Shown here in pieces: positions 430 through 15,098 of a DNA stretch of 64,000 nt. This stretch comes from a virus. The translations under genes and the position numbers were made by a program. The stretch's first letter is position 1. Each line of letters starts with the position of its first letter. The notes below the pieces were generated by a model that did no database searches, was not told the DNA's origin, and saw only the letters and a list, made by a program, of their open reading frames with translations. Where the stretch lies: IMG/VR virus record IMGVR_UViG_3300033145_001595, positions 1 through 64,000 of that record, one strand, 5' to 3'.

Positions 430-458
430 ATTATACCATACTACAGGTCATTTGTCAA
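430..458 (-). promoter_or_regulatory. Early sigma-70 promoter P1
   Basis: TTGACA (458-453), a 17-bp spacer and TATAAT (435-430), with TGG just before the -10 (extended -10). The spacer matches those of the other early promoters. It drives the 90-aa Cys-rich gene. Confidence 0.93.
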
Positions 459-540
459 GAGAAATCTACCCACATCCTACAACTTGCCCCCTACTCCCGC
501 GCCTTATTTTTTGTGCGTTTTTGCTATACTATACAGATGC

Positions 541-963
541 TTACCCTACCAGAACAACGTCTCCGTGCTCTGCAAAATCTTCCGGGCTAGTGGGATACAA
601 GAGAGGGAACGCCCTGTATGTATCTGCACTCATTTCAAAAATGCGATTCTCCCCGTTCTTGTACTTGAACGTCGCACACACACTGCCACTTATCTGCCTA
701 GAAGCGGACCAGCGCACACCTAGCCCACTAGCCATCATTACCCGCTTACGTTCTTCTCGCTCTCCGTAATCTGTCTTTGCTTTGGCACACCCACACCTTA
801 TGTGAGCCTCTTTACTAAATCTATCAGCGTACCCCTTCCGGCATCTTGGACACGCCGCTACTGGCGGACAATTGTTAAACGGACATTTGTAGTTACGTAC
901 TTTACCCGACGCCCCGCATATGCTACAACACAACAAGCCCTTTGAATCATAAATATTTCCCAT
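541..963 (-). CDS. Multi-zinc-ribbon protein, 140 aa
   Basis: The N-terminal half contains repeated cysteine pairs (CCSIC near residue 12, CPFNNC near 27, CPRC near 38, CGC near 57), consistent with two or three zinc ribbons or knuckles. The C-terminal half resembles a small alpha/beta domain of unknown function. The start has a good GGGAGC site 6 nt upstream. It follows the DUF2958 gene by 12 nt and is the last gene of the P2 operon. A nucleic-acid-binding or host-takeover role is only inference. Confidence 0.8.
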   Translation of the reverse strand: MGNIYDSKGLLCCSICGASGKVRNYKCPFNNCPPVAACPRCRKGYADRFSKEAHIRCGCAKAKTDYGEREERKRVMMASGLGVRWSASRQISGSVCATFKYKNGENRIFEMSADTYRAFPLLYPTSPEDFAEHGDVVLVG

Positions 964-975
964 TGTTTCTGCTCC

Positions 976-1317
976 CTATTCATCCATGTGACAAAGCAAA
1001 TCAATGTCCTCATTACTGAACAACTCAGGCGCAAGCTTGCCTAGTGTACATGGAGTCCAGTACCTATCACGTTCAACCAGTAAACCAAGCGGCCCACGTG
1101 CCACCGACAACTCAGACAAACTAAAACACCCAAGCTCCTTTTTGAATCCATCCACAAGACCAAAAAACGTGTCCACACCGTCAAACTCTGTGGCATACCA
1201 CGTCCAGGTCGAATCGGGCGTAAAAAACTTCACACGAATAACAGCCTGCGCACCAAGCCCTTCCTGACTATACAAAGCCGGTAATGCACGCCGATTTGCT
1301 TTCGTGAGTAACATCAT
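976..1317 (-). CDS. DUF2958 family protein
   Basis: The 113-aa product matches the DUF2958 pattern: an opening LLTKANRRALPALYSQE, then a KFFTPDSTWTWYATEFDG segment and an FFGLVDG...LGCFSLSEL segment. DUF2958 proteins are common on plasmids, ICEs and phages; their function is unknown. A GGGGGTG site lies 8 nt before the ATG. The leader contains the GTTACTCT box seen behind the early promoters, although here no promoter precedes it, only the 1353-1403 hairpin. It is probably co-transcribed from P2. Confidence 0.88.
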   Translation of the reverse strand: MMLLTKANRRALPALYSQEGLGAQAVIRVKFFTPDSTWTWYATEFDGVDTFFGLVDGFKKELGCFSLSELSVARGPLGLLVERDRYWTPCTLGKLAPELFSNEDIDLLCHMDE

Positions 1318-1352
1318 CTTATTTTCACCCCCAAGAGTAACAAACTAAAGAA

Positions 1353-1403
1353 GGGGAAAGGTTAGATTCTGGAATGGCGCACACAGTATCCTAACCTTTC
1401 CCC
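1353..1403 (-). terminator. 13-bp perfect intercistronic hairpin
   Basis: A 13-bp perfect inverted repeat (1353-1365 with 1391-1403) has a 25-nt loop and lies between the 51-aa zinc gene and the DUF2958 gene. In the leftward RNA it is followed by TTCTTTAGTTTG, a poor U-tract. It may be an attenuator, a processing site or an RNA-stabilising stem rather than a full terminator. Confidence 0.6.
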
Positions 1404-1410
1404 CCCTATG

Positions 1411-1566
1411 CTACTGTGCCCCCTTTGGCTTACGCCGATAGTCGGGTGAGCCTACTGCCATGATATGATGCCTACCAAGCTCATGCCCGGCACCCCGAAT
1501 ACAATAGCCGCACACCTTACAACGATTCGCCCTACCCTCTCCGTCCATCTTAGGTCTGTACACCAT
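1411..1566 (-). CDS. Small zinc-finger-like protein, 51 aa
   Basis: A short ORF begins at ATG 1566 with AGGAG 8 nt upstream, in the leader of promoter P2. The product has a CKVCGYC motif followed about 15 residues later by GRHH, a plausible C-C-C-H zinc site reminiscent of a stripped-down HNH motif, and a basic C-terminus. It is the first gene of the P2 operon. Confidence 0.72.
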   Translation of the reverse strand: MVYRPKMDGEGRANRCKVCGYCIRGAGHELGRHHIMAVGSPDYRRKPKGAQ

Positions 1567-1610
1567 TTTTACTACTCCTGTTCAAAGTACCCATCTCTGA
1601 CTATGCCTAC

Positions 1611-1639
1611 ATTATACCATACTACAGGTCATTTGTCAA
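1611..1639 (-). promoter_or_regulatory. Early sigma-70 promoter P2
   Basis: TTGACA-N17-TATAAT with extended -10 TGG. The stop codon of the upstream 91-aa gene lies inside the spacer. It drives the 51-aa zinc protein, DUF2958 and the multi-zinc-ribbon gene. Confidence 0.93.
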
Positions 1640-1904
1640 GGAAAATATCAAGATTTTCTACAGACACAATAGTTACATTACAATACGCAACACCCACAAT
1701 AGGCTCCATTTTTGCAACTATTTCCCTTTTCCTATCTTGCTTACGGGCAAGCCTATATGCTTCAGCAGAACTAAGCATACTTCGTGATGCCATATCTATC
1801 CAACAAGGGCCAAATGGGCGCGTTCCATCGCCACCAGTCTCTCGCACAACAGCAAAGAAATCATCCCCATCGACACTTGCAACTCTTTCCTTAGTCCATG
1901 CCAT
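1629..1904 (-). CDS. Hypothetical 91-aa protein, paralogue of the 88-aa gene at 6.5 kb
   Basis: The function is unknown. It aligns by eye with the 6432-6698 product through shared DFF-VVR, C-DM, IVGVA and TI-V positions, so the two are paralogues. AAGGGAG lies 9 nt before the ATG. The last codons (FLDK and stop) are encoded by promoter P2 sequence, so the C-terminus looks imposed by the promoter. It is the last gene of the 2608-1629 run. Confidence 0.8.
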   Translation of the reverse strand: MAWTKERVASVDGDDFFAVVRETGGDGTRPFGPCWIDMASRSMLSSAEAYRLARKQDRKREIVAKMEPIVGVAYCNVTIVSVENLDIFLDK

Positions 1905-1910
1905 TGTCCG

Positions 1911-2129
1911 TTACTCCCTTTCTTGACGACGATAACCATAACGTCCGTATTCTGCTGCCTCAAATAAAGCATCTTCTACATCACGAACCGCCCAATCAAG
2001 TGCATTATACATTTTCTTCTTCTCAGCACATACTACTTCCGCTTCTGCCTTATCAAGCGTAACAAAATGAGCAGTATTATCATACCCGACAATGTACACA
2101 TTTTTCCCTTTGGGGTCAACCTTAGCCAT
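1911..2129 (-). CDS. Hypothetical 72-aa protein
   Basis: A small soluble protein, lysine-rich at the start, with a central helix-forming acidic/basic stretch and an arginine-rich end (YGRYGYRRQERE). No family was recognised. Start 2129 is chosen for the AAGGGAG site 8 nt upstream. It lies 6 nt upstream of the 91-aa gene in the same operon. Confidence 0.72.
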   Translation of the reverse strand: MAKVDPKGKNVYIVGYDNTAHFVTLDKAEAEVVCAEKKKMYNALDWAVRDVEDALFEAAEYGRYGYRRQERE

Positions 2130-2145
2130 TGTTTCTACTCCCTTC

Positions 2146-2367
2146 TTAATCCCCACTGACCTTCTTAGCTACTAGCCATGCTGGTATCCCCACAACGTCC
2201 ATAGGCCCCATACCACGCGCCTGAACGTTGCACACTGACCGGGGGCACCATATGCGCTTACCTACCAGTGACTCGGCTTGTGCGTCCCCGCCCGACCTTA
2301 CCAAAAACAAAACGGCCTTTGCAGTCTCTCGCTTTATGGTACCATAGACATTTACCAAATCTGCCAT
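2146..2367 (-). CDS. Hypothetical 73-aa protein
   Basis: The predicted product begins MADLVNVYGTIKRETAKAVL and contains CPRSVC. Its pattern (a small beta-rich domain that talks of charged/hydrophobic alternation) is seen in many short phage proteins of unknown role. The start has the same upstream context as its neighbour (GGGG and TAAGGCA before ATG). It follows the 78-aa gene by 4 nt. Confidence 0.66.
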   Translation of the reverse strand: MADLVNVYGTIKRETAKAVLFLVRSGGDAQAESLVGKRIWCPRSVCNVQARGMGPMDVVGIPAWLVAKKVSGD

Positions 2368-2371
2368 TGCC

Positions 2372-2608
2372 TTAGCCCCTGCAAGAGTAACCCTGCACAA
2401 ATGCCATAGCAGCTTCCATTCCCTGCACAGTCCCCAACACACCCCTAGAAAAGAAATAATCGGGTATAGACCCATCTCGCCGCAAAGGGAAAAACCTGTA
2501 ACACGGCGGACCATACTCAGAAACCCGCACACACACGGACAACCCCGCATCATACGAAGCGGCCACTAACCTTGTCCATTCCATCTTTATTCTTTCTGGC
2601 CTATCCAT
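2372..2608 (-). CDS. Hypothetical 78-aa protein
   Basis: An unknown small protein beginning MDRPERIKMEWTRL with a YFFSRGVLGT stretch. The ATG at 2608 sits behind GGGGACTAAGGCA; a GTG at 2623 is the alternative. No promoter was found directly upstream, so it may be reached by readthrough of the 2692-2714 hairpin from promoter P3. Confidence 0.6.
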   Translation of the reverse strand: MDRPERIKMEWTRLVAASYDAGLSVCVRVSEYGPPCYRFFPLRRDGSIPDYFFSRGVLGTVQGMEAAMAFVQGYSCRG

Positions 2609-2691
2609 TGCCTTAGTCCCCACCGCCTATCAAATAAAAATGGATCACCAGCCGGTGCTCCATACCCGGCATTCGTGGCTAGCAAGGGGTA

Positions 2692-2714
2692 AAGGCCGGG
2701 ATTTTCCCGGCCTT
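2692..2714. terminator. GC-rich hairpin (10-bp perfect stem)
   Basis: AAGGCCGGGA and its complement are separated by a 3-nt loop. It lies in the 170-bp gap after the 66-aa gene. It resembles the other leftward terminators in stem sequence but lacks a downstream U-run, so it is probably a weak terminator. Nothing else was recognised between 2,610 and 2,780. Confidence 0.55.
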
Positions 2715-2781
2715 CCCTTGCGCCTGCCTTGTGGCTTGCTACTCAAACAGCAAACACACCCGACAGACTTCGCGCGACTCA

Positions 2782-2982
2782 CTATGACGTTTCAACGTAC
2801 TTCATGGCAGTACACAACAGATTATTGTAATCACCCGACGTTGCTTCCTCTTCAAAATCCTTTGCACCTTCCGGGTGTCCGGCCCGCCTAAGCGCTTTCA
2901 TTACCCGCCCAATAATTGCAAATGCATTTCCATCTTCGCCAACAAGCTTTACTTCCACGTCCCCGTAAATCGGTTCTGCCAT
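2782..2982 (-). CDS. Hypothetical 66-aa protein
   Basis: A small protein with an acidic start (MAEPIYGDVEVKLVGEDGNA), a helix (FAIIGRVMKALRRAG) and a C-terminal NNLLCTAMKYV. Similar short proteins occur in actinobacteria and phages, but no function is known to me. A GGGAGTAGGAA site precedes the ATG. It is the sole gene between promoter P3 and the 2.7-kb hairpin. Confidence 0.78.
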   Translation of the reverse strand: MAEPIYGDVEVKLVGEDGNAFAIIGRVMKALRRAGHPEGAKDFEEEATSGDYNNLLCTAMKYVETS

Positions 2983-3030
2983 TTTCCTACTCCCTACTCA
3001 GAGTAACCGTCCCTTACTATCATGCTTGCA

Positions 3031-3059
3031 TTATACCATACTACAGGTCATTTGTCAAG
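3031..3059 (-). promoter_or_regulatory. Early sigma-70 promoter P3
   Basis: TTGACA-N17-TATAAT with extended -10 TGG. The -35 directly abuts the U-tract of the terminator at 3061-3086. It drives the 66-aa gene. Confidence 0.93.
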
Positions 3060-3060
3060 G

Positions 3061-3086
3061 GAAAAGACCAGGAATTGGCCCGGCCT
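3061..3086 (-). terminator. Rho-independent terminator abutting P3
   Basis: The minus-strand stem GGCCGGG/CCTGGTC (7 bp with G-U pairs, 6-nt loop) is followed by TTTTCCC and then immediately by the -35 TTGACA of P3. It ends the P4 transcript. Confidence 0.75.
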
Positions 3087-3089
3087 TCC

Positions 3090-3257
3090 CTTGACGACGG
3101 CCCACTATCCGGTTGCGCTACTGGACCGTCTAGTGTGCAGGAGCGAGGGCAACGCCCTCATTGCATACTAGAGAGCTAGACCCTAGTACGCCCGTCGTTT
3201 CCTCTCCTAGCTCGAAAGTTATCGACCCTAGATATTCTCCCGCACCCTATTCCCTTT
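3090..3257 (-). other. Structured non-coding 3' region
   Basis: About 165 bp have no convincing gene. Leftward RNA could fold with an outer 7-bp stem ACGACGG/CCGTCGT and an inner hairpin CTAGTATGCA...TGCACACTAG that encloses GAGGGC-GTT-GCCCTC. The folding was found by eye. It may be a structured 3' UTR of the 87-aa gene or a small RNA. It has tRNA-like dimensions but no T-loop consensus. Confidence 0.4.
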
Positions 3258-3521
3258 CTAATGTGTGTGTCCATGTACTCGCTGCATGGCCTTTGCACCC
3301 AATTGATTAGCTACCATAGTCCGCACCCGGAAATCCTCAGAATGCAGCAACTTATCTATTGCGCAATCATCGCAAAACCCGGCCCGGTCCCCATCCCAAT
3401 TCGAGATTCCGGCCTTTCCTGCAACGTCCGTTACCTTAGCGGACAAACTCAACAATTGCGTTTCAAGGCGCTTGATCGCGGCCACCCGTTCCGTCTCCGC
3501 TGCCATATAATCACAAGGCAT
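3258..3521 (-). CDS. Hypothetical 87-aa protein
   Basis: Unknown. The N-terminal half is a predicted helix or short coiled coil (VAAIKRLETQLLSLSAKV); the middle has GFCDDCAIDKLL, a Cys pair. AGGAG lies 8 nt before the ATG. It is the only gene in the P4 unit and is followed by the structured region and terminator at 3,061-3,257. Confidence 0.77.
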   Translation of the reverse strand: MPCDYMAAETERVAAIKRLETQLLSLSAKVTDVAGKAGISNWDGDRAGFCDDCAIDKLLHSEDFRVRTMVANQLGAKAMQRVHGHTH

Positions 3522-3565
3522 TTCCGTTGCTCCTATCCAGAGTATCCGTTCCTGACTATGAACGT

Positions 3566-3594
3566 ATTATACCATACTACAGGTCAAATGTCAA
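3566..3594 (-). promoter_or_regulatory. Early sigma-70 promoter P4
   Basis: TTGACA-N17-TATAAT with extended -10. The spacer differs from most copies by ATTTG in place of AATG after the -35. It drives the 87-aa gene. Confidence 0.93.
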
Positions 3595-3620
3595 GGGAAA
3601 AGGCCGGGGAAAACCCGGCC
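3595..3620 (-). terminator. Rho-independent terminator abutting P4
   Basis: Stem GGCCGGG/CCCGGCC with a 5-nt loop, then TTTTCCC and the -35 of P4. It ends the P5 transcript. Confidence 0.85.
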
Positions 3621-3644
3621 CCCCTTACTCCTAATCCCCTTCTC

Positions 3645-4004
3645 TTATCCGGGCGGGACGGGTAACATTTGTGGCCATTCATTATCATCGGCCAAGTACC
3701 CATGATAGGCGTTTGTCTCACCTGTTCCACAATCGTAAACGAGTATGCCCGCATCCCCATGACTATCATCATCTTTCGGCGGAATCTGCGCAAGGGGCGG
3801 AAACACACCAAGCGACAGATTACCCGGAATGTCAATATGAAATTGACCTGTCAACCGAGCAACGCTATATGATAAATCCCCCTGCCGCATACCGGGAATG
3901 GCATCGCGTAACATGCTCAGTGCTTCGGACCCGCGCCAATGAACATATACTGTGCATCCGATTTCGTCACCATTCTTTACACTAATCAAGCACCTATCAC
4001 CCAT
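3645..4004 (-). CDS. Hypothetical 119-aa protein
   Basis: It opens MGDRCLISVKNGDEIGCTVYVHWRG, resembling a recurrent phage/bacterial family whose members start MxDRxxVxxK... and have a Y-x-HW-G motif and a late DxGxYxxD segment; the function of that family is unknown. A GGGAGTAGGAA site precedes the ATG. It is a single gene between promoter P5 and its terminator. Confidence 0.8.
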   Translation of the reverse strand: MGDRCLISVKNGDEIGCTVYVHWRGSEALSMLRDAIPGMRQGDLSYSVARLTGQFHIDIPGNLSLGVFPPLAQIPPKDDDSHGDAGILVYDCGTGETNAYHGYLADDNEWPQMLPVPPG

Positions 4005-4051
4005 TTTCCTACTCCCGTCTAGAGTAACCTACCCATCCCATCATGGAATAC

Positions 4052-4080
4052 ATTATACCATACTACAGGTCATTTGTCAA
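4052..4080 (-). promoter_or_regulatory. Early sigma-70 promoter P5
   Basis: TTGACA-N17-TATAAT with extended -10 TGG. It drives the 119-aa gene and is preceded by the 4083-4108 terminator. Confidence 0.93.
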
Positions 4081-4082
4081 GG

Positions 4083-4108
4083 AGAAAGGCCGGGAAAATC
4101 CCGGCTTT
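4083..4108 (-). terminator. Rho-independent terminator abutting P5
   Basis: Stem GCCGGGA/TCCCGGC (extended by AAAG/CTTT across a bulge) and CTTTCTCC, then the P5 -35. It ends the P6 transcript. Confidence 0.8.
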
Positions 4109-4113
4109 GCGCC

Positions 4114-4341
4114 TTAACGGTTTATCCGTTCAATCGGTATAAGCTCATCTAACTTATTCCGAACACTGTACGCTGCATTGATCTGGTCATTACGTTTGAA
4201 TACCACTGTTCCGTCTTGTAGCATCGACTCTGTAGGACTGCTATCAAGCACAGTATCAGAGAATAGCGCGTCACTAACAAGTCGATCTAACACTTTAACT
4301 TCTTCCAGAGTCAATTCCAAGACCAATTTGTCAATACTCAT
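4114..4341 (-). CDS. Hypothetical 75-aa protein
   Basis: A small acidic protein with an N-terminal helix (LELTLEEVKVLDRLVSDAL) and no recognised family. The upstream AGAGTAGGAA site is a weakened form of the usual leader RBS. It is a single gene between promoter P6 and its terminator. Confidence 0.77.
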   Translation of the reverse strand: MSIDKLVLELTLEEVKVLDRLVSDALFSDTVLDSSPTESMLQDGTVVFKRNDQINAAYSVRNKLDELIPIERINR

Positions 4342-4388
4342 TTTCCTACTCTCGTCTAGAGTAACCTACCCATCCCTATCATGCCTGC

Positions 4389-4417
4389 ATTATACCATAC
4401 TACAGGTCATTTGTCAA
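4389..4417 (-). promoter_or_regulatory. Early sigma-70 promoter P6
   Basis: TTGACA-N17-TATAAT with extended -10. The TGA stop of the upstream 77-aa gene is part of the -35 TTGACA. It drives the 75-aa gene. Confidence 0.93.
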
Positions 4418-4647
4418 GGGGAAAGACTAGCAAAAAAGCATTCCGAAAGCCCCCTCTCATTTGGATTACAAGATGCCGCATTTACATTATCTATTGCAAC
4501 CACTGGCCAATGTCCCGATCCTTCTGGCAACACCATTTCAATCGCATCTTCTGGAGTATCCGCTCGCACCACCTTGCGAAATAATTCCAACATCTTGCCC
4601 TTGCTCCGTTCTACTGTATGCGACACAATAAACTTTTTGACTGCCAT
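4414..4647 (-). CDS. Hypothetical 77-aa protein
   Basis: Begins MAVKKFIVSHTVERSKGKM and has an AEDAIEMVL-like helix (TPEDAIEMVLPEG) typical of small 'DpdA/EDAI' phage helpers, but no function can be assigned. Start 4647 has AAGGAG 6 nt upstream; the GTG at 4650 is less likely. It ends with SLSP and stop encoded by promoter P6 sequence. It lies 19 nt after the sigma-like gene in the same operon. Confidence 0.76.
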   Translation of the reverse strand: MAVKKFIVSHTVERSKGKMLELFRKVVRADTPEDAIEMVLPEGSGHWPVVAIDNVNAASCNPNERGLSECFFASLSP

Positions 4648-4666
4648 CACTTACTCCTTACATTTA

Positions 4667-5209
4667 CTAAATTGTAGCGTCTACTAACTCCCTACGGACC
4701 CGTTGCAACTTCCACCTTGATAGCCCTAAATACTGTGCAACCAGTACCGGAAATGTCTTGCGCTTGTTGCTAGTGTCCCTACAGATAGCCTGCAATTCCG
4801 GCGGTGGGTCAAGCGCACACTGCAAGAACGCTTCCGCCCTATCACTTAGTGTGCCAGTGTCATGGCGAAAGAACAACGCTACGTCCCGCCCATCCCGTGA
4901 GATACGCACCGGCACGTCTGAACACGTCAAAGCGGTCACTACCGGCCCTACATCGGGTAATGCCTGCACACTGCGTAGCATAGCCTTTCGCAAAATATTA
5001 TGAAACTGCCTAATTAGACACGTATTCAGGTAGGTATTAAATGTGGCTTTCCCGCTTGGATTCCACGTTACCCTCACCCTATGCAGTACTATATTCCCTT
5101 CACTGATTAAATCGTCCAGCGACCAGATACCACGTCTTGTACCCATTTTTCGTAAACAAATCTTTGCCTGTATTTCAATGATTTTATCAGCCGTTACTAC
5201 CTTTGCCAT
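4667..5209 (-). CDS. Sigma-70-like RNA polymerase sigma factor
   Basis: The 180-aa protein has a region-2-like core: WSLDDLISEGNIVLHRV near residue 29 (compare DLIQEGNIGLLKAV of sigma-70), followed by FNTYLNTCLIRQFHNILRK (compare FSTYA-WWIRQAI-R). A C-terminal VAQYLGLSRWKLQRVRREL looks like a region-4 helix-turn-helix. It is shorter than host sigmas and lacks an evident region 3, like phage and ECF-type factors. In context it could redirect host polymerase from the consensus early promoters to the GTGTATAATA class found elsewhere in the window. The identification rests on motif resemblance; the promoter link is inference. Confidence 0.72.
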   Translation of the reverse strand: MAKVVTADKIIEIQAKICLRKMGTRRGIWSLDDLISEGNIVLHRVRVTWNPSGKATFNTYLNTCLIRQFHNILRKAMLRSVQALPDVGPVVTALTCSDVPVRISRDGRDVALFFRHDTGTLSDRAEAFLQCALDPPPELQAICRDTSNKRKTFPVLVAQYLGLSRWKLQRVRRELVDATI

Positions 5210-5211
5210 AC

Positions 5212-5346
5212 TTACTTAACCTTTCCACACACAGTACACCGCCAATAAGTAGCGTGTTCCTTTGGCTTACACTCATTATGAACACGCATACCTTGCCCGT
5301 ACCGCTGATCCTGCCATTTATGCTTACATGTACATTGCCGTATCAT
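5212..5346 (-). CDS. Small zinc-ribbon protein, 44 aa
   Basis: CTCKHKW near the start and CTVCG near the end form a four-cysteine zinc ribbon. The ATG at 5346 has AAAGGTG 6-7 nt upstream. It lies 2 nt upstream of the sigma-like gene, suggesting translational coupling. Confidence 0.72.
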   Translation of the reverse strand: MIRQCTCKHKWQDQRYGQGMRVHNECKPKEHATYWRCTVCGKVK

Positions 5347-5370
5347 GCTCAACACCTTTCGCCCGTCAAA

Positions 5371-5397
5371 GAAAGGAAAGGGCGGGTTTCCCCGCCC
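5371..5397 (-). terminator. Hairpin after the 314-aa gene
   Basis: Stem GGGCGGG/CCCGCCC with a 4-nt loop, followed leftward by TTTCCTTTC. No new promoter follows, so the zinc-ribbon, sigma and 77-aa genes probably depend on readthrough. That would make it an attenuator on sigma expression. Confidence 0.65.
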
Positions 5398-5409
5398 CAC
5401 TATTTTTAC

Positions 5410-6354
5410 CTACACTGGCGGCATTTCAAAATCATCGGCCAGTTCATCAACATCCGCCGGTACTTCGGCGTCTGTATTCTCCCCGTTGCCATTTTCCTTT
5501 TTCCATGCTGCCAGTGCTTCCTCATCTATATGGTTCCCCACACCATCATTCTTGTGTGCAGTCACCCCCGCGTAATAGTCCACATAAGCCGTGTCACGTT
5601 CGTCTGGCATCATTTCGATGCCGTCTGGCGCAACATAACCGGGCAACGAGAACTCTTGATTCAGGTCAAGAGTAATTTCCGCAAAGGCGATTCTTGCGGT
5701 CTCAACTTCCGCAATTTTTTCATCCCAAGCGGCCAATTCTTCGCCCGCTTTCTTGCTCGCCCGCGTAATTGCCCGTGCCGTTTTCTTAGCGGCCTGCATG
5801 GCGCTGGAAAGCTTACCAGCGGTCGATGCCTCGAACATCGACTCTATACCGGCGGCCCCCCGCATTGTGTCTCTGAGCGCCTTGACGTCCGCCCGTTCAA
5901 TGGCATCCGCCATTTTGTTAAGCGTTTGTTGCGCACTAGAGATAATGGCGTTTGCTGCCGATCCTTCGTCGCCAGCAAGCAGAAACGTTATGAACCCGCC
6001 CGAAATGCTGGTAAACTTTGACGTGGAATTATGCAGATTGATAATTGTACGCGCGGCGCTAATCGCTTCCTGCAATTCCGCCCCCCTGGACATCGGAACG
6101 TACGTCCCCGCGTACACCGAATAGCCCAAACTTTTGACACCATTTTTGGCGTCAAACACGGCCTTTGCAACGGCCTTGTGTTCGTCGACATTGGCTATAC
6201 GCTTGTTAGTGTGCCAGTCACCCGTAAGCACTCGGTCAACGTCCACAACTTCGTTGCGGTCGCTAACTTTCATACTCACACACCCGTGATTGTGAATATC
6301 CGCCACAACCAACCATCCCGATTTCAAAACTGCACTAGGTCTAACAGTTCCCAT
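5410..6354 (-). CDS. Hypothetical 314-aa protein with helical core and acidic tail
   Basis: No family was recognised. Residues about 85-235 are mostly alanine/lysine-rich helices suggestive of a coiled coil, and the last 60 residues are acidic (ENGNGENTDAEVPADVDELADDFEMPPV). The next gene unit upstream in the same direction includes a AAA+ ATPase, each with its own promoter; functional pairing of an ATPase with an acidic partner is only a guess. The GGGAGTAGGAA leader RBS supports the start. GC content is high, like the ATPase. Confidence 0.8.
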   Translation of the reverse strand: MGTVRPSAVLKSGWLVVADIHNHGCVSMKVSDRNEVVDVDRVLTGDWHTNKRIANVDEHKAVAKAVFDAKNGVKSLGYSVYAGTYVPMSRGAELQEAISAARTIINLHNSTSKFTSISGGFITFLLAGDEGSAANAIISSAQQTLNKMADAIERADVKALRDTMRGAAGIESMFEASTAGKLSSAMQAAKKTARAITRASKKAGEELAAWDEKIAEVETARIAFAEITLDLNQEFSLPGYVAPDGIEMMPDERDTAYVDYYAGVTAHKNDGVGNHIDEEALAAWKKENGNGENTDAEVPADVDELADDFEMPPV

Positions 6355-6406
6355 TTTCCTACTCCCAGCTAAAGTAACTTGTCCATCCCTTTCCCATCAT
6401 GCCTGC

Positions 6407-6435
6407 ATTATACCATACTACAGGTCGTTTGTCAA
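6407..6435 (-). promoter_or_regulatory. Early sigma-70 promoter P7
   Basis: TTGACA-N17-TATAAT with extended -10. The stop codon of the 88-aa gene is inside the -35. It drives the 314-aa gene and, by readthrough, the sigma-like gene. Confidence 0.93.
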
Positions 6436-6698: not shown

Positions 6699-6745
6699 TT
6701 TCCTACTCCCGTCTAAAGTAACTTCGCCCTTCCCATCATGCCTGC

Positions 6746-6774
6746 ATTATACCATACTACAGGTCAAATGTCAA
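6746..6774 (-). promoter_or_regulatory. Early sigma-70 promoter P8
   Basis: TTGACA-N17-TATAAT with extended -10, with the same ATTTG spacer variant as P4. It drives the 88-aa gene. Confidence 0.93.
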
Positions 6775-8384: not shown

Positions 8385-8413
8385 ATTATACCATACTACA
8401 GGTCATTTGTCAA
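8385..8413 (-). promoter_or_regulatory. Early sigma-70 promoter P9
   Basis: TTGACA-N17-TATAAT with extended -10. The stop of the 81-aa gene lies in the spacer. It drives the AAA+ ATPase. Confidence 0.93.
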
Positions 8414-8695: not shown

Positions 8696-8724
8696 ATTAT
8701 ACCACAGCATAGACAACCTGTCAA
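8696..8724 (-). promoter_or_regulatory. Early sigma-70 promoter P10 (divergent spacer)
   Basis: TTGACA-N17-TATAAT with extended -10 TGG, but the spacer sequence differs from the other copies (GGTTGTCTATGCTGTGG). It drives the 81-aa zinc-ribbon gene and lies at the edge of non-coding element A. Confidence 0.88.
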
Positions 8725-8754
8725 GCAAAAAACTTTTTACTCCAAAGATGGTAA

Positions 8755-9056: not shown

Positions 9057-9061
9057 ATTAT

Positions 9062-9313
9062 TTACTCCACATCAGGTTGCATCAACTCAGGATGATCCAT
9101 TTCTATTTTACGAACATACCCCTTAACACCCATAGTACCATTTAGTATTGCATGTCTTGGAACTGCTTTACCAGTACACCACCTATGAACTGACGCCCAC
9201 GTAACACCTATCTCATTAGCAACATCCTCTTGTGTGTGACCTACTGCTTTCCTAGCCCTATCAAGCCTCTCAGGTGTAAACTCAAAATCATCAATATTCC
9301 TATCTACTCTCAT
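9062..9313 (-). CDS. XRE-type helix-turn-helix protein
   Basis: An 83-aa protein. Residues about 17-50 (RKAVGHTQEDVANEIGVTWASVHRWCTGK) match the XRE/Cro HTH pattern with TQEDVA as the positioning helix and WASVHRW as the recognition helix. It is probably a small transcriptional regulator. A GGAAGGAAC site lies upstream. It is the last gene of the operon starting near 11.9 kb and adjoins element A, whose repeated GGTGCAA motifs could be its operators (inference). Confidence 0.88.
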   Translation of the reverse strand: MRVDRNIDDFEFTPERLDRARKAVGHTQEDVANEIGVTWASVHRWCTGKAVPRHAILNGTMGVKGYVRKIEMDHPELMQPDVE

Positions 9314-9341
9314 AATTGTTCCTTCCTATACAAACCCTAAA

Positions 9342-9524: not shown

Positions 9525-9527
9525 TAC

Positions 9528-9788
9528 TTACCTCTTTAATGTTAACGGAGCACGCACGATTGGAAACAGCCACGCTTTCTCAGTCTGCCCACGTAACTCA
9601 AAGTCTTTGGCACAGTCCGCGCACAAGGACATTGCACCTTGTTCCCCATCATCTCCTGATTCTTTTTCCACTGCAATAAATACGGGAAGCTTACCACATT
9701 GCCTTGGCGGAGAAATCCCAAGAGTAAACGGACTACTACCAAACCATCGCTGACAATGTAATACGTTAGTAGGATCAAGCTTATCCAT
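9528..9788 (-). CDS. Hypothetical 86-aa protein with Cys pairs
   Basis: Contains LHCQRWFG, RQCGK and SLCADCAKDFELRGQ; the spaced cysteines resemble a zinc ribbon. AGGAG lies 6-7 nt before the ATG. Three nucleotides separate it from the membrane-protein gene. No family was recognised. Confidence 0.76.
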   Translation of the reverse strand: MDKLDPTNVLHCQRWFGSSPFTLGISPPRQCGKLPVFIAVEKESGDDGEQGAMSLCADCAKDFELRGQTEKAWLFPIVRAPLTLKR

Positions 9789-9798
9789 TACTTATCTC

Positions 9799-10143
9799 CT
9801 AAATATAAAAAGAAACTACTTTACGAGAATGCACCCAAGGACGACGCCAAAAAAATGGTACAGGCACCGCAACCAATAACCTACACCATACTATACCCAT
9901 ACTCACCTGCCACATCGACCCGTAATCACAAATTGATAATACACACCATTCATGCACAATGGGATGAAAAGAAAAGAACAAACTACCTCGTACATTAAAC
10001 AAATTCAAATACCATACCCCTGTACCACCACGACCCCAATCAAAAAATAATGAAGTAGCCCGTGTACGTGTTCCTTCTACATCCAAACCTTTCGACACAA
10101 GAAGCTGCTCAAACTCTTTACGATCCATCATTAGTGTAGCCAT
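9799..10143 (-). CDS. Hypothetical 114-aa protein
   Basis: N-terminal helix, then a Trp/Phe-rich beta-like region and a hydrophobic segment near residues 80-97 that could be membrane-associated (MGIVWCRLLVAVPVPFFW). AGAGG lies 6 nt before the ATG. It overlaps the stop of the upstream gene by 1 nt. The function is unknown. Confidence 0.74.
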   Translation of the reverse strand: MATLMMDRKEFEQLLVSKGLDVEGTRTRATSLFFDWGRGGTGVWYLNLFNVRGSLFFSFHPIVHEWCVLSICDYGSMWQVSMGIVWCRLLVAVPVPFFWRRPWVHSRKVVSFYI

Positions 10144-10403
10144 TACTTACCTCTTTCCCCCAACGACTCAGTTAATGCATCCATTGCACGCGCCACTAGA
10201 CCCACCACATGCCCCTTACGTATCCAACCCTTAACCTCGGCATAGGCAAGAGCCGTCTCTAACGGACCATCCTGACGTAACGATACCGAGTAATTGCCAA
10301 CTTCGAGACCTCCCGTTCCATCATTCACAATCTCAACAACAGCCAAATTCATACCAGGATTATCCTCTCCGGGTGAGTATAAATCAATCATCACTCGCAA
10401 CAT
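10143..10403 (-). CDS. Hypothetical 86-aa protein
   Basis: Start 10403 is chosen for AGGAG 7 nt upstream. The product begins MLRVMIDLYSPGEDNPG and has alternating beta-strand-like segments and a C-terminal helix (VVGLVARAMDALTESL). It overlaps the 49-aa membrane gene by 20 nt. No family was recognised. Confidence 0.7.
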   Translation of the reverse strand: MLRVMIDLYSPGEDNPGMNLAVVEIVNDGTGGLEVGNYSVSLRQDGPLETALAYAEVKGWIRKGHVVGLVARAMDALTESLGERGK

Positions 10404-10533
10404 CACCAGTCTCCTCTCCAAACCATTCACATAACCAATCACATAATCCACAGATCGCTAGCATCACTATCGGAATCACAGGAAGCAATGCAGCTATTAG
10501 AATCTGCCCCGAAGTCAAATCCTCACCCTGCAT
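10384..10533 (-). CDS. Small membrane protein, 49 aa
   Basis: The short ORF at ATG 10533 has AAGGAG 7 nt upstream. The product has one hydrophobic stretch (ILIAALLPVIPIVMLAICGL, about residues 11-30) followed by a Trp/Cys-rich acidic tail. It overlaps the next gene by 20 nt, as expected for a coupled operon pair. Confidence 0.66.
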   Translation of the reverse strand: MQGEDLTSGQILIAALLPVIPIVMLAICGLCDWLCEWFGEETGDVASDD

Positions 10534-10554
10534 CGCCAGTCTCCTTTTTATAAC

Positions 10555-11118
10555 TCATTTTTCTTTTCTACAGTATGGCACTACCCCATTCAAACCATAA
10601 ATATACTGTGCCCCATCTATATACAACTTAACGCACTTAGGGGCTGGTTGCCCAGGAACAAGGGGCTCTGTACTCGTAACAAAGCATGACTCAGATTCCA
10701 ATTTAGGCTCCGGAGCCAACGTATACCCACTAGTCATAACACAAGGCCACCACCGACCATGAGCATTATCATATTCAAATTTTTCCGTTGCCCCATTCCA
10801 CCGACAGGGCGCTTCCTCATACATCACATTACCCCCACCTTTAGCTACCAACACAGCCTCCCCCAACGTCATAATACCAACTCTTATATCACTCGGTACT
10901 GATTCCATATCAGGGGTAAGCAAATTCCAACAATACTCTTTACTATGTGTACCATCCCAAGAAGATTCTATTACCCACTTTGCTTCTACAACACCAGCAA
11001 CCAAAACTTCAAATATATCCTCTGTGTCCTTACACTTACGATGAATAGCAATAGTACTAGCATTATACGCATACGCCCCACCTGCCAAAGCTATCTTCAT
11101 TGTCTCACCATTCAACAT
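10555..11118 (-). CDS. Hypothetical 187-aa protein
   Basis: Unknown. From ATG 11118 the protein begins MLNGETMKIALAGGAYAYNA and continues with a cysteine- and tryptophan-containing mixed fold. GGGGGTAAG lies upstream of 11118; ATG 11100 is a possible alternative. It is in the operon with small membrane proteins, 1 nt from the 56-aa gene. Confidence 0.72.
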   Translation of the reverse strand: MLNGETMKIALAGGAYAYNASTIAIHRKCKDTEDIFEVLVAGVVEAKWVIESSWDGTHSKEYCWNLLTPDMESVPSDIRVGIMTLGEAVLVAKGGGNVMYEEAPCRWNGATEKFEYDNAHGRWWPCVMTSGYTLAPEPKLESESCFVTSTEPLVPGQPAPKCVKLYIDGAQYIYGLNGVVPYCRKEK

Positions 11119-11119
11119 T

Positions 11120-11290
11120 TTACTTACCCCCATAAACAAGAATAAGAGTAATAATCACCAGACCAAACCCAATGACTGCATGAAACGTAGCACGCGGAAT
11201 ATCATCCGCTATCAAACAACAACAGGCCACTACAATATTACCCAAAGCAACAGCCATACCAGTAAGCACTATTGGTAGTAATATGTTCAT
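11120..11290 (-). CDS. Small membrane protein, 56 aa
   Basis: Two hydrophobic segments (ILLPIVLTGMAVALGNIVVA and VIGFGLVIITLILVY) predict a two-pass hairpin. AAAGG lies 8 nt before ATG 11290. The function is unknown. Confidence 0.7.
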   Translation of the reverse strand: MNILLPIVLTGMAVALGNIVVACCCLIADDIPRATFHAVIGFGLVIITLILVYGGK

Positions 11291-11306
11291 ATTTTCTACC
11301 TTTCTT

Positions 11307-11408
11307 TTATGTAATTCGCTTATTGCATCTACGGGCCACATTACGTTGAGCTTCCTTCTTACGATTCCTATGCCTTCTTGTTGGTGGAGGCATTCTCTTT
11401 CTTTTCAT
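11307..11408 (-). CDS. Possible 33-aa basic peptide
   Basis: An ORF of 33 residues with about half Arg/Lys (begins MKRKRMPPPTRRHRNRKK). A run of G (GAGGGGG) lies about 9 nt upstream. It fills the gap between two operon genes. It could be real or chance; no homology claim is made. Confidence 0.35.
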   Translation of the reverse strand: MKRKRMPPPTRRHRNRKKEAQRNVARRCNKRIT

Positions 11409-11438
11409 TTTTCATTTCCCCCTCAAATATTAGGCCCA

Positions 11439-11657
11439 CTATCCTCCCAAATCGCCACGCCGATCAACGTCGGTAAGGAAACAACGCGGCCAAGACGGCA
11501 TACGGACCCGCCCGTTCTCGTTCAGCGAATCCTCAACCTCCCGTATGGCCCACATTGCAGTTAACACCCCGGAAATATTCCGGTTGCCCACAGCTTCCAT
11601 CAAGGAACGGTGTGCCTCAACCAACTTACACAAAAGATGAATCGTCCTATCACTCAT
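11439..11657 (-). CDS. Hypothetical 72-aa protein
   Basis: Start 11657 is supported by GGGAGG 8 nt upstream; in-frame extension upstream would run into the tRNA-like gene. The product is a helix-rich small protein (LLCKLVEAHRSLMEAVGN, then AMWAIREVEDSL). It is the first protein gene downstream of the tRNA-like gene. Confidence 0.72.
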   Translation of the reverse strand: MSDRTIHLLCKLVEAHRSLMEAVGNRNISGVLTAMWAIREVEDSLNENGRVRMPSWPRCFLTDVDRRGDLGG

Positions 11658-11726
11658 TTGTAATCCCTCCCAATTGAATATGAGCGCCCTACATTTCACG
11701 AGGCCCCCTTTGTCTGCGTGTGCGGC

Positions 11727-11830
11727 TTGGGATGGCCGGATTCGAACCGGCGATGCGTGTTGACGAAGCACGCTGATTTCGAGTCAACGTAGCTAGCGTG
11801 ATCCGGGTTTGTCCACTTCCCCACACCCCA
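11727..11830 (-). tRNA. tRNA-Ser(CGA)-like gene, atypical
   Basis: Minus-strand acceptor strands TGGGGTG/CATCCCA pair over 7 bp (one G-U); the T arm is GCCGG-TTCGAAT-CCGGC; a D arm GGG...CCC contains AAGTGGACAAA. The anticodon arm GTTGA-CTCGAAA-TCAGC gives CGA (Ser) with the canonical loop. A long variable region fits class II tRNAs. Oddities: about 15 extra nt between D and anticodon arms, no encoded CCA, and flanking sequences that extend the acceptor by another 7 bp (GTGCGGC/GCCGCAC) past the discriminator. It may be functional after processing, degenerate, or a tRNA-like regulatory RNA. It lies in the leader of promoter P11. Confidence 0.6.
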
Positions 11831-11942
11831 TGCCGCACGCTTCACAATGACGGGCACTCCTTGACGCTGTCCACCCTCTTCCCCTGAGTGGGTGCCGGCG
11901 CGACAGTCGCAGCGGGCCATTACCTTTCTCTATCATGCCTGC

Positions 11943-11971
11943 ATTATACCATACTACAGGTCATTTATCAA
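11943..11971 (-). promoter_or_regulatory. Early sigma-70 promoter P11
   Basis: TTGATA-N17-TATAAT with extended -10 TGG (one mismatch in the -35). It drives the tRNA-like gene and the operon down to 9.06 kb. Confidence 0.9.
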
Positions 11972-11983
11972 GGGAAATCCAGT

Positions 11984-12418
11984 CTACTTTCGCTTTCTGC
12001 GCCGTCTAACTATAGGCTGTACATCAACACTAACATTTTCTCTACGCCTGCGCCGTCTAATTATTGGCATAGCTATAGACTTCTCTGATTTCACTCTCTC
12101 CACTACATCGAGATCAAACGGCACAAATGAACTACCATCATTTATTGTTTTCTCATTCACCCATTGCTTGTACTCTACTAAAGTATTGAATCCCATAATC
12201 CTAACATAGATTAGAGCAAGGTCTTTATTTTTCATAAACCGTCTACTTCCAGGTTCACACCGAATATGCCTAACCTTACCCCCTGGGAGACGAGTACCTA
12301 CCAACTCAATGCAACCAGTAATGCGACTGATCCGTCTACCTACAGGCTTACCACACACGTAGCAAATCTGTTTTTCTTTCAAACTTTCGGCAATTTCCAA
12401 ATTAGTCATTTTCGCCAT
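11984..12418 (-). CDS. Zinc-binding protein with Arg-rich tail, 144 aa
   Basis: CYVCGK near residue 19 and HIRC near residue 51 suggest a treble-clef or zinc-ribbon site, as in HNH-like or traR-like phage proteins, but no HNH catalytic set is evident. The last 35 residues contain two similar basic blocks (PIIRRRRRR and PIVRRRRKR) that suggest nucleic-acid binding. It is the last gene of the SahH operon, 12 nt before promoter P11. The RBS is weak (AAAGG, about 12 nt). Confidence 0.78.
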   Translation of the reverse strand: MAKMTNLEIAESLKEKQICYVCGKPVGRRISRITGCIELVGTRLPGGKVRHIRCEPGSRRFMKNKDLALIYVRIMGFNTLVEYKQWVNEKTINDGSSFVPFDLDVVERVKSEKSIAMPIIRRRRRRENVSVDVQPIVRRRRKRK

Positions 12419-12424
12419 TTATTT

Positions 12425-12610
12425 TTAATCCTTTACTTCCCATTGCCATTCACCCGTAGCATGGTCATATCCGGCAACACCTTGTTCTATGGCCTGTGTT
12501 TCCATATTTCTTTCCCCCCGATTTATACCCACAGCCGTGCCAATAAAAAAACCAACAACACCCATAATCACACCTATCACAATTATAGCACCCATATCCA
12601 TATCATCCAT
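12425..12610 (-). CDS. Small membrane protein, 61 aa
   Basis: A glycine/isoleucine-rich hydrophobic segment (AIIVIGVIMGVVGFFIGTAV, about residues 8-27) is followed by a soluble acidic tail. AAGGAG lies 8 nt before ATG 12610. The function is unknown. Confidence 0.74.
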   Translation of the reverse strand: MDDMDMGAIIVIGVIMGVVGFFIGTAVGINRGERNMETQAIEQGVAGYDHATGEWQWEVKD

Positions 12611-12636
12611 TATCACTACTCCTTTTAGAATTTAGA

Positions 12637-13917
12637 TTACGTACCTTCCTGCCAACCTGCCATGTAATCCTTCTGCCGCGTAGTCAACTTATCAATGTCA
12701 ATACCCATTGTCCCTAACTTCAACTCAGCTACCAATTTGTCAATGTGGATAGGAACGGAATAGACACCTGCCTTGGGTTCAAATTCCGTTCCCAACTCCT
12801 TAGTATACACAGCGTACTCCGACGTTAACGCCTGCACAGCGAAACTCATATCCATTACAGACGATGGGTGCCCCTCGGCAGCGGCCAAGTTCACAAGCCG
12901 CCCCTCTGCAAGAAGATAAATTCTTGTACCATGACCTGTCTCATACTCTTCTACGTTCTCTGCCTTCACTTCAAAATCATTCGACATTTCTACAAGATCA
13001 TCAATATTTATTTCAACATTGAAATGACCAGAGTTTGCAACTATCGCACCATCTTTCATCCGAGAAAAATGCTCTCGCCTTATCACATCAGCATTACCCG
13101 TCACAGTCACAAAAAGATCACCGTCCGGGACTGCTTCTTCCATCGTAGTCACTCGGAAACCATCCATAACGGCCTCCAACGCCCGCAACGGATCAACTTC
13201 CGTTACAGTAACATGAGCACCCATACCCTTCATACGACTAGCAAGGCCACGCCCACACATGCCATAACCAGCCACCACAACGTTCATTCCGGCTATCAGC
13301 GCACCCGTGCAACGTATAATACCGTCGACAGTACTCTGTCCAGTACCATAGCGATTGTCAAACAGGTGCTTGGTCATTGCGTCATTGACAGCGAACACAG
13401 GAAACAGAAGCATACCTGCACTCTCCATAGCCCGCAAACGATTCACACCTGTAGTAGTCTCTTCCATACTAGCTATTACATCAGTAGCCAATTCTTTACG
13501 TTCGGACAGAATAGCCGTCACAAGATCAGCACCATCGTCTATTGTAATATTTGGCTTATTGTCCAGTACACTGGTAATATGATTGTAATAAGTTTCATTT
13601 GTCTCACCATGCCGTGCAAATACAGGTATACCCCAATAATCCACCAACGCCGCAGCCACATCATCCTGTGTACTAAGGGGATTTGACCCACACAGTACTA
13701 TGTCCGCACCGCCAGCCTTCAAAGCCCGTGCCAAATTTGCAGTCTCAGCAGTTATATGCAAACAAGCCGAAATCCGCAAACCGGCAAACGGCCTCTCTGT
13801 CTCAAAGCGATCACGCACCATAGCCAAAACCGGCATGGACTTATTTGCCCACTCGATTCTTCGCAAACCACCTTTAGCCAACGACATATCCTTTACATCG
13901 TACTTACTCTGTTCCAT
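12637..13917 (-). CDS. ahcY: S-adenosylhomocysteine hydrolase (SahH)
   Basis: Splits S-adenosylhomocysteine to adenosine and homocysteine using bound NAD, removing the product inhibitor of SAM methyltransferases. The 426-aa length is normal. Visible features are HITAETANLARAL, GSNPLSTQDDVAAAL, HGETNETYYNHI and DDGADLV in the substrate domain, and the NAD loop GYGMCGRGLASRMKGMGAHV. The C-terminus ends TTRQKDYMAGWQEGT, like archaeal-type short enzymes, and lacks the KPDHYRY tail of the common bacterial/eukaryotic type; some archaeal members act on S-inosylhomocysteine. It sits in the P12 operon among small unknown genes. With several phage methyltransferases in the window, a SAH-clearing role is likely (inference). 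Confidence 0.95.
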   Translation of the reverse strand: MEQSKYDVKDMSLAKGGLRRIEWANKSMPVLAMVRDRFETERPFAGLRISACLHITAETANLARALKAGGADIVLCGSNPLSTQDDVAAALVDYWGIPVFARHGETNETYYNHITSVLDNKPNITIDDGADLVTAILSERKELATDVIASMEETTTGVNRLRAMESAGMLLFPVFAVNDAMTKHLFDNRYGTGQSTVDGIIRCTGALIAGMNVVVAGYGMCGRGLASRMKGMGAHVTVTEVDPLRALEAVMDGFRVTTMEEAVPDGDLFVTVTGNADVIRREHFSRMKDGAIVANSGHFNVEINIDDLVEMSNDFEVKAENVEEYETGHGTRIYLLAEGRLVNLAAAEGHPSSVMDMSFAVQALTSEYAVYTKELGTEFEPKAGVYSVPIHIDKLVAELKLGTMGIDIDKLTTRQKDYMAGWQEGT

Positions 13918-13918
13918 T

Positions 13919-14272
13919 TTAATTATACTTTCTATGTCGATTAGGAGAATTCAAAGCCCGACGCAACCTACGTCGGAAGTTTTTAAGAACACGAACAGCA
14001 TCAACATCAAAAGTCTGACCAGAATGAACATAAAAAATATCACTACAAGCATCAACAATTTCATTAAACATCTCACCCGATACACCACTACATCTACGCT
14101 TAAGTATACATTGGTGGCACCCATATTCATTACACAGCGGAAATGGCTCTTCCCCCAAAAACTCACTTTTGCGAATACTTTTTACTGTAAAAGCCTCAAG
14201 AAGCTTTTCAATATCACCCTTCTTAACCCTAATTCTATCCTCAATCTTTCTACCAAACATTCCAATCCACAT
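13919..14272 (-). CDS. Hypothetical 117-aa protein with Cys cluster
   Basis: Contains LCNEYGCHQCILKRRC (about residues 47-62), a C-C-C-C set that could bind zinc or an Fe-S cluster, and a basic C-terminal helix (VRVLKNFRRRLRRAL). AAGGAAAT lies before the ATG. It is adjacent (1 nt) to the SahH gene. The function is unknown. Confidence 0.76.
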   Translation of the reverse strand: MWIGMFGRKIEDRIRVKKGDIEKLLEAFTVKSIRKSEFLGEEPFPLCNEYGCHQCILKRRCSGVSGEMFNEIVDACSDIFYVHSGQTFDVDAVRVLKNFRRRLRRALNSPNRHRKYN

Positions 14273-14274
14273 TT

Positions 14275-14517
14275 TTATTTCCTTTCCTTATTATGAATAA
14301 TACACACCTGTTCACCAATAGCATCCTGGACCAAACGCCCATGCTCCACAGACAATCCAAGCCCACCCCGACCCGTCCCCGTCAAGAATCCCCAACCACG
14401 TACATCAAATATCCGTGTCACACTTCCTTTGTGCATAATATAGATAAACCCACCCATCTTATCAAACTGCCATTCAACATTCATTACACAATTGAAAGCC
14501 TCAGTTTCCCCAATCAC
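14275..14517 (-). CDS. Hypothetical 80-aa protein
   Basis: Begins at a GTG preceded by AAGGAAAG. The protein has beta-like segments and a glycine-rich turn (GWGFLTGTGRGGLGLSVEHG). No family was recognised. It lies 2 nt from the next gene. Confidence 0.68.
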   Translation of the reverse strand: MIGETEAFNCVMNVEWQFDKMGGFIYIMHKGSVTRIFDVRGWGFLTGTGRGGLGLSVEHGRLVQDAIGEQVCIIHNKERK

Positions 14518-14523
14518 AATTAT

Positions 14524-14754
14524 TTACTTTCCTTCCTTAGATTCAGGAGAAAACATACGCCCACAATCCCTACATCCACTCCAACCATCATTAGAGGACC
14601 AACGACGATTAGACGGATGAGAACACCTTTTCCTTCGCTCACACATAAGCGTTTCTATCAGACCCGTTTTATAGCACACAAGACATTGACCTTTTTGACG
14701 ACCACCAGCATACCACTCACGAATACGCGAATGATCGCATGTCTTTTGATTCAT
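14524..14754 (-). CDS. Zinc-ribbon protein, 76 aa
   Basis: Contains CLVC, a second C-x5-C and CRDCGRMF near the end, so probably one or two zinc ribbons; Arg-rich between them. An AGGGG site lies upstream of the ATG. The function is unknown. Confidence 0.75.
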   Translation of the reverse strand: MNQKTCDHSRIREWYAGGRQKGQCLVCYKTGLIETLMCERRKRCSHPSNRRWSSNDGWSGCRDCGRMFSPESKEGK

Positions 14755-14767
14755 AATTATTTTACCC

Positions 14768-15022
14768 CTATGACTTTGGAACCAACTTCCTCAAACTCAA
14801 ACTTTCCAAAGTTCTTTCAAGGTGATTCCTAGCAGTATATGAATCAAATATTAAGTCTTGCTCCAACCTACCAGCCGCAAAACCATGCTTAATCCCAATA
14901 GACAAACTCATCCTAACTCTACGATCAATTTTAACGGCATCATCTACTACATCCTCCAACTCAGTAAGCAACTTACTAGCACGCCGATAAAATCTTTCCA
15001 CATCATTTTCTATGTAAGCCAT
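14768..15022 (-). CDS. Hypothetical 84-aa helical protein
   Basis: Mostly helical (YRRASKLLTELEDVVDDAVKI and RNHLERTLESLSLRKL). Start 15022 follows the P12 leader with GGGAG. It is the first gene of the P12 operon containing SahH. Confidence 0.74.
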   Translation of the reverse strand: MAYIENDVERFYRRASKLLTELEDVVDDAVKIDRRVRMSLSIGIKHGFAAGRLEQDLIFDSYTARNHLERTLESLSLRKLVPKS

Positions 15023-15069
15023 TTTCCAATCTCCCATCAAGAGTAACCATCCCTTACCATCATGCCTGC

Positions 15070-15098
15070 ATTATACCATACTACAGGTCATTTGTCAA
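15070..15098 (-). promoter_or_regulatory. Early sigma-70 promoter P12
   Basis: TTGACA-N17-TATAAT with extended -10. The stop codon of the 265-aa gene is part of the -35. It drives the seven-gene SahH operon. Confidence 0.93.

Follow-up and report, generated by a model that had tools for sequence, protein, structure and literature searches.

A standard means of phage takeover is an array of strong early promoters, the members of which normally agree mainly at the positions contacted by sigma-70. Here, we describe a probable array of this kind in the virus record IMGVR_UViG_3300033145_001595 of IMG/VR (102,928 base pairs [bp]), within the stretch of 64,000 nucleotides (nt) from position 1 to 64,000 that we call the window. 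It consists of twelve consensus promoters, eleven of which also share almost the same spacer between the two sigma-70 hexamers. Among the described systems, the early promoters of T4 combine UP, -35, TGn, and -10 elements and outcompete host promoters, while its middle promoters do without a -35 (PMC2988021). In the archaeal virus SIRV2, 11 of 13 early genes carry a near-identical core, and their later repression has been attributed to the viral protein Aca8 (PMC11065993). Promoters without a -35 are also known for the phage sigma factor phi32_gp36, which uses single-element promoters (phiEco32 consensus tAATGTAtA) (PMC8948821), and for the late promoters of kayviruses, attributed to a phage sigma factor and likewise lacking a conserved -35 (PMC6445280).

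Twelve consensus promoters on one strand

The pattern TTGANA-17-TATAAT was found 12 times in the window, always on the minus strand and between positions 430 and 15098, where 0.12 occurrences are expected per 64 kb, and none of 100 shuffled sequences reached 12 sites. There were no occurrences on the plus strand or in the rest of the 102,928-bp record, and allowing up to two mismatches added matches only at chance level. The 17-bp spacing and the TGG preceding TATAAT (extended -10) were present in 12/12 sites, and the -35 variant TTGATA appeared once, at 11943. The sites match sigma-70 extended -10 promoters in their hexamers, their spacing (17 ± 1 bp), and their TGn. An original prediction, made from the letters alone, had listed twelve such sites with these very properties, and each of them was recovered at the expected position. 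A scatter of the motif over both strands without relation to genes, which that prediction had named as the observation that would speak against it, was looked for as well, and the sites proved to be confined to the minus strand and linked to genes.

The uniformity extends to the spacer. The eleven canonical spacers comprise eight identical copies, two that begin with TTTGACC, and one that begins with AACGACC. The 20-mer GACCTGTAGTATGGTATAAT is invariant in the eleven copies, and so is the block GACCTGTAGTA (11/11), with variation confined to the 3 nt adjoining the -35. This agrees with the earlier claim of eleven nearly equal spacers (eight identical plus three minor variants), the exception being site 8696, which keeps both hexamers and the TGG and differs from the canonical spacer at 9/17 positions. 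The twelve cores are as follows.

430..458, minus strand: core 1, TTGACA-17-TATAAT with canonical spacer; heads gene 111-389
1611..1639, minus strand: core 2; heads genes 1411-1566, 976-1317, and 541-963
3030..3058, minus strand: core 3; heads gene 2782-2982; hairpin terminator directly upstream (z -3.75)
3566..3594, minus strand: core 4, spacer variant TTT; heads gene 3258-3521; hairpin terminator upstream
4052..4080, minus strand: core 5; heads gene 3645-4004; hairpin terminator upstream
4389..4417, minus strand: core 6; heads gene 4114-4341
6407..6435, minus strand: core 7, spacer AACGACC; heads 5410-6354 and, beyond a terminator at 5379-5398, the sigma-like gene 4667-5209 and 4414-4647
6746..6774, minus strand: core 8, spacer variant TTT; heads gene 6432-6698; hairpin terminator upstream (z -3.41)
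8385..8413, minus strand: core 9; heads AAA+ ATPase gene 6814-8343
8696..8724, minus strand: core 10, consensus hexamers and TGG with deviant spacer; heads gene 8403-8648
11943..11971, minus strand: core 11, TTGATA; heads a tRNA-like RNA and the operon from 11657 to 9062, including a helix-turn-helix regulator
15070..15098, minus strand: core 12; heads the operon from 15022 to 11984, including an S-adenosylhomocysteine hydrolase gene

All of the cores are intergenic and co-directional with their genes, as expected if each heads a gene or short operon. The distance from the -10 to the ATG was 40 to 52 nt at eleven sites, the exception being 11943, where the tRNA-like RNA comes first and the operon lies behind it. 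Most cassettes head single small genes, and two long operons start at 11943 and 15070. The gaps between cassettes are irregular (311 to 3247 bp). Near-identical repeats in phages can also be sites of replication, packaging, or recombination, and the irregular spacing could fit such a promoter-like element. We consider this highly improbable, given the consensus hexamers at 17 bp, the TG in 12/12, the gene-wise orientation with a ribosome-binding site and ATG shortly behind, and the odd copy 8696, in which precisely the sigma-70 elements are retained and the spacer is lost.

The arrangement goes beyond what had been proposed in two respects, since conservation extends beyond the promoter itself (see below) and a diverged 13th relative lies at record positions 102801-102829 on the minus strand, with TTGACA-17-TAGGAT followed by TAGGGAGTCGGGAAATG. 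A hairpin terminator of the same family as those of the array (CAAGGG...CCCTTG), strong and with no cassette attached, was also found.

2683..2720, minus strand: hairpin terminator without cassette (z -4.98)

Spacer identity compared with other arrays

The density of strong promoters had been taken as a special feature of this region, and this did not hold. A broad pattern scan of viral contigs found arrays of perfect TTGACA-17-TATAAT with 14 to 31 sites in at least six viral records; among the matches listed, one array record corresponds in its site positions to Lactococcus phage 949, which has 27. Spacer identity in five other arrays was 0.37 to 0.44, little above the 0.28 to 0.39 expected from composition. 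In the takeover region of SPO1, which we retrieved, twelve extended -10 sites of the TTGAC type occur within 13.2 kb; their spacer identity is 0.48, and no perfect TTGACA-17-TATAAT was found in SPO1. A promoter array is thus a known kind of arrangement; the unusual part is the letter-for-letter spacer identity (0.94). As identity in a spacer that sigma-70 is not known to contact, it offers a natural test of copying versus hidden regulation.

Structure and copying of the cassette

The conserved unit covers ca. 85 nt and reads TTTTCCC - TTGACA - 17 nt - TATAAT - GCAGGCATGATgg - variable stretch - TTACTC...GGGAGTAGGAAAATG, so that the composite runs from the upstream TTTTCCC tract via the promoter, the +1 region, the leader, and the Shine-Dalgarno sequence to the ATG. 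At 3030, 3566, 4052, and 6746, a GC-rich hairpin has the TTTTCCC-like tract as its tail and extends up to or beside the -35, which makes these four cassettes terminator-promoter-leader-ribosome-binding-site blocks. We also considered a leader hairpin that would hide the Shine-Dalgarno sequence (TTACTC...GAGTAG); it can be formed in about 6 to 7 of 11 leaders, reached p ~0.05 against shuffles in only four, showed no compensatory changes, and is not claimed.

Pairwise identity among the eleven copies was 0.94 over the 14 spacer positions outside the TGG and 0.94 to 1.00 over the core. It fell to 0.30 upstream (positions -20 to -8, counted from the -35) and to 0.39 to 0.48 downstream (9 to 24 nt past the -10). 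Changes affected 5/154 positions in the spacer versus 15/77 in the adjoining upstream 7 nt, a significant difference (Fisher p 8e-5); the downstream 8 nt were also changed more often than the spacer, though only nominally so (p 0.07). Cores 3566 and 6746 have the TTT variant in common and resemble each other in the upstream flank (0.65), not in the downstream one (0.40), while the downstream part of 3566 resembles that of 1611 (0.60). These are mosaic copies, as expected from recombination within the core. For the most part, the genes that follow the cassettes show no relationship to one another, indicating that the cassette moved without its gene; duplication of cassette and gene together was ruled out, with just one paralogous pair (1629-1904 with 6432-6698). 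The shared spacer variant and the mosaic flanks support the earlier suggestion that the array was built by copying one regulatory cassette.

Could recent copying alone account for the fixed spacer? There would then have been too little time for it to diverge and nothing would read it, an explanation that we find quite conceivable while leaning somewhat against it. The shared variants and mosaic flanks fit it, as do the RecA-like and SbcCD-like genes of the phage and the recurrence of repeated sequence elsewhere in the region. However, the flanks have diverged to 0.4 to 0.7 identity and the core has not, so that a uniform clock misfits, and conversion tracts confined to ca. 30 nt would be needed.

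The alternative is that the spacer is an operator, i.e., that a phage DNA-binding protein reads GACCTGTAGTATGG at eleven promoters and the early regulon is shut down or tuned jointly, with promoter 8696 escaping. To our knowledge, sigma-70 does not read this part of the spacer, and GACCTGTAGTA stays invariant while the 3 nt beside the -35 vary and while spacers vary in the five other phage arrays. A regulator of the helix-turn-helix type is encoded within the array:

9062..9313, minus strand: Cro/C1-type helix-turn-helix protein (HTH_31, E 6.7e-7; PHROG transcriptional regulators)

Located in the operon of cassette 11943, this protein is the obvious candidate for a cassette regulator, and the 11 of 13 early genes of SIRV2 with Aca8 would be a precedent (PMC11065993). 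Nevertheless, the core contains no convincing dyad (best imperfect arms 6/8), the restriction of changes to three positions rests on two independent events, and the identity is explicable by copying alone. Overall, we regard an operator as rather unlikely. Its fullest form, drawn by analogy, would be a phage counterpart of SIRV2/Aca8, in which one regulator reads eleven promoters and switches a takeover or anti-defense regulon off at once, 8696 escapes, and a sigma-like protein opens the next class; this we consider unlikely. The pattern of changes points to copying as well as to protection of the core, and copying with recombination would be the simplest answer to the fixed spacer.

A sigma-like protein and a second class of promoters

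The array includes a gene for a sigma-like protein.

4667..5209, minus strand: sigma-70-region-2-like protein, 180 amino acids, inside the array (Pfam Sigma70_r2, E 4.3e-5)

Its Pfam Sigma70_r2 score is 23.7 bits versus a gathering cutoff of 24 bits, the PHROG sigma factor match has E 4e-4, and there is a weak sigma match in PDB. In addition, by inspecting other intergenic regions and then refining the motif, we obtained the element GTGTRTAATANNRT, with ten sites in the record versus 0.16 in shuffles. These are intergenic in 10/10 cases, occur on both strands, and mostly lie 15 to 44 nt ahead of a gene start; no conserved or recognizable -35 element was seen in this class. Six of these sites, all in the window, are the following.

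15936..15949, minus strand: upstream of 15095-15892
16190..16203, minus strand: heads a candidate non-coding RNA with a terminator at its end
28421..28434, plus strand: upstream of 28474-28995
32658..32671, plus strand: upstream of clamp-loader-like gene 32713-33669
41374..41387, plus strand: upstream of SbcD-like gene 41402-42397
60828..60841, minus strand: upstream of radical-SAM/glycosyltransferase gene 57422-60841, the true start of which is probably just inside this open reading frame

The candidate structured RNA (15970-16190, minus strand, ~210 nt) extends from its second-class site to a strong terminator; Rfam gave no match in 1-17000, this RNA included. The radical SAM/glycosyltransferase-like gene adjoins a methyltransferase-like one (56046-60841, minus strand).

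The sigma-like protein in the region and the ten second-class sites are new here. A sigma-like gene inside the array and a GTGTRTAATANNRT class ahead of replication and other genes suggest an early-to-middle switch, in which the 4667-5209 protein would act at the GTGTRTAATANNRT sites. We think it likely that the array consists of very strong early promoters for host sigma-70 that were multiplied as a cassette, followed by a hand-over to the second class. The cassette, its uniformity and placement, the second class, and the sigma-like gene are read directly from the DNA, and from them we infer the early timing, the use of host sigma, the hand-over, and the takeover function. On entry of the DNA, all of the cassettes would be read by the host RNA polymerase, still unmodified and carrying the primary sigma factor. 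These ca. 85-nt transplantable units would have been copied ahead of small accessory genes, and recombination among the copies together with selection on the core would have maintained their uniformity. Terminators between some units would keep them separate, and the leaders would supply a standard ribosome site. The early product 4667-5209 would then probably help to redirect the polymerase to the GTGTRTAATANNRT class, i.e., to replication and other genes.

Several observations weigh against this. The sigma match of 4667-5209 covers region 2 alone, just under the Pfam gathering score, and region 4 was looked for in this protein and not found; an alignment-free fold had low confidence (pLDDT [predicted local distance difference test] 42) and was not used. 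A terminator lies between cassette 6407 and this gene. The GTGTRTAATANNRT class retains a sigma-70-like TGTRTAAT, which host sigma with an activator would also explain. Finally, no cassette-bearing relative was found, so the copying history is undatable: exact searches of viral and genome contigs with the 29-mer, searches with the 19-nt core, and blastn of the 85-nt cassette consensus against phages gave chance matches only, and scans by the polymerase, AAA protein, major head protein, and sigma-like protein returned only distant loci or none. The second class and the sigma-like gene open the transcription switch of the phage lineage to direct tests.

Gene content and affiliation of the phage

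The products of the genes behind the cassettes are small proteins, mostly without a family match. By sequence alone, the cassette flags a set of small, presumably early genes, and their products are good candidates for host takeover or anti-defense proteins. The AAA+ ATPase behind cassette 8385 (6814-8343, minus strand) is 34% identical to a protein of cluster O mycobacteriophages, in which 8 to 9 SigA promoters have been predicted (PMC4351075). PADLOC gave no defense match beyond an IetA-like ATPase score for this protein and a marginal methyltransferase one. The S-adenosylhomocysteine hydrolase (12637-13917, minus strand) is full length, with ca. 70% identity to Planctomycetota metagenome-assembled genomes, 59 to 64% to Chloroflexota and others, and no PHROG match. 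Behind cassette 11943, the tRNA-like fold (11700-11860, minus strand) has a 7-bp acceptor stem, a D-like arm, an extra insertion, and the T arm GCCGG-TTCGAAT-CCGGC; ARAGORN finds it only with an intron allowed (Val-GAC, 10-nt insertion). A pair of tRNA genes for Leu(TAA) and Lys(TTT) is located at L010:7371-7541.

Among the recognizable proteins are a head maturation protease, an HK97-type major head protein, a portal, a tape measure protein, a family-A DNA polymerase, a DnaB-like helicase, and RecA, all of them distant from named phages. The terminase large subunit gene (44103-46595, plus strand) apparently contains an intein (LAGLIDADG_3, E 8e-8; Hom_end_hint weak). Bases 1-16000 had no DNA match to any record of the phage collection searched. 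The portal and terminase are closest (~26 to 30%) to phages outside the Herelleviridae, and the polymerase matches are all <30% (27.6% to Bacillus phage SBSphiC). By these comparisons, we regard it as an unclassified tailed phage that was no member of the Herelleviridae by any test made.

Host-takeover modules of the SPO1 type lie in a terminal redundancy. The present record is not listed with end repeats, and the array region abuts its start. At the opposite end are similar GC-rich leftward small genes and the diverged 13th promoter, and the record is possibly incomplete. A non-coding element of ~230 to 250 bp is present twice (8760-9060 and 16260-16540, minus strand, 70% identity), with an apparent third copy at 1-27 that is cut by the record start and may explain the assembly end. 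Other repeats are the non-coding degenerate ones at L010:16030-16480 (GGCCTTATCTCGCTATG...), possibly a replication origin or packaging region, and long ACTACTTGAACTAGACGAA-like arrays (L009:3979-5568 and 9217-9400; L010:1262-2351) that overlap leftward genes, both within the head/tail gene region and past it.

Comparison with described promoter systems

The original prediction had likened the array to a host-takeover region of the SPO1 type. The likeness in organization stands, with a cluster of small genes behind strong promoters, twelve of them in SPO1 too, while a kinship with SPO1 does not, and "host-takeover region" is therefore a functional analogy. SPO1 (Bacillus phage; Herelleviridae, Okubovirus) likewise has ca. 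13 kb of small early genes, many with their own extended -10 sigma-A promoter, its spacers are partly alike with a CTAC motif, and transcription regulators are encoded in both regions. However, its sites lie on both strands, its spacers are less uniform, and it has no sequence kinship with the present phage. In Lactococcus phage 949, 25 of the 27 perfect sites are on one strand, mostly with TG, but they are spread genome-wide (most in the first 75 kb) and have diverse spacers.

T4 resembles the present phage in having multi-element early promoters followed by a class without a -35, although its middle promoters have a MotA box near -30 and none was identified here. SIRV2 also places small early accessory genes behind a near-identical promoter core with conserved surroundings; it is, however, an archaeal rudivirus with TATA/BRE promoters, and the repressor proposed there, Aca8, has only a candidate counterpart here. 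Lastly, phiEco32 gp36 combines, like the present phage, a sigma-like factor with promoters lacking a -35, but the motifs differ (GTGTRTAATA in the present phage), and the sigma-like protein here is a candidate factor for the second-class sites.

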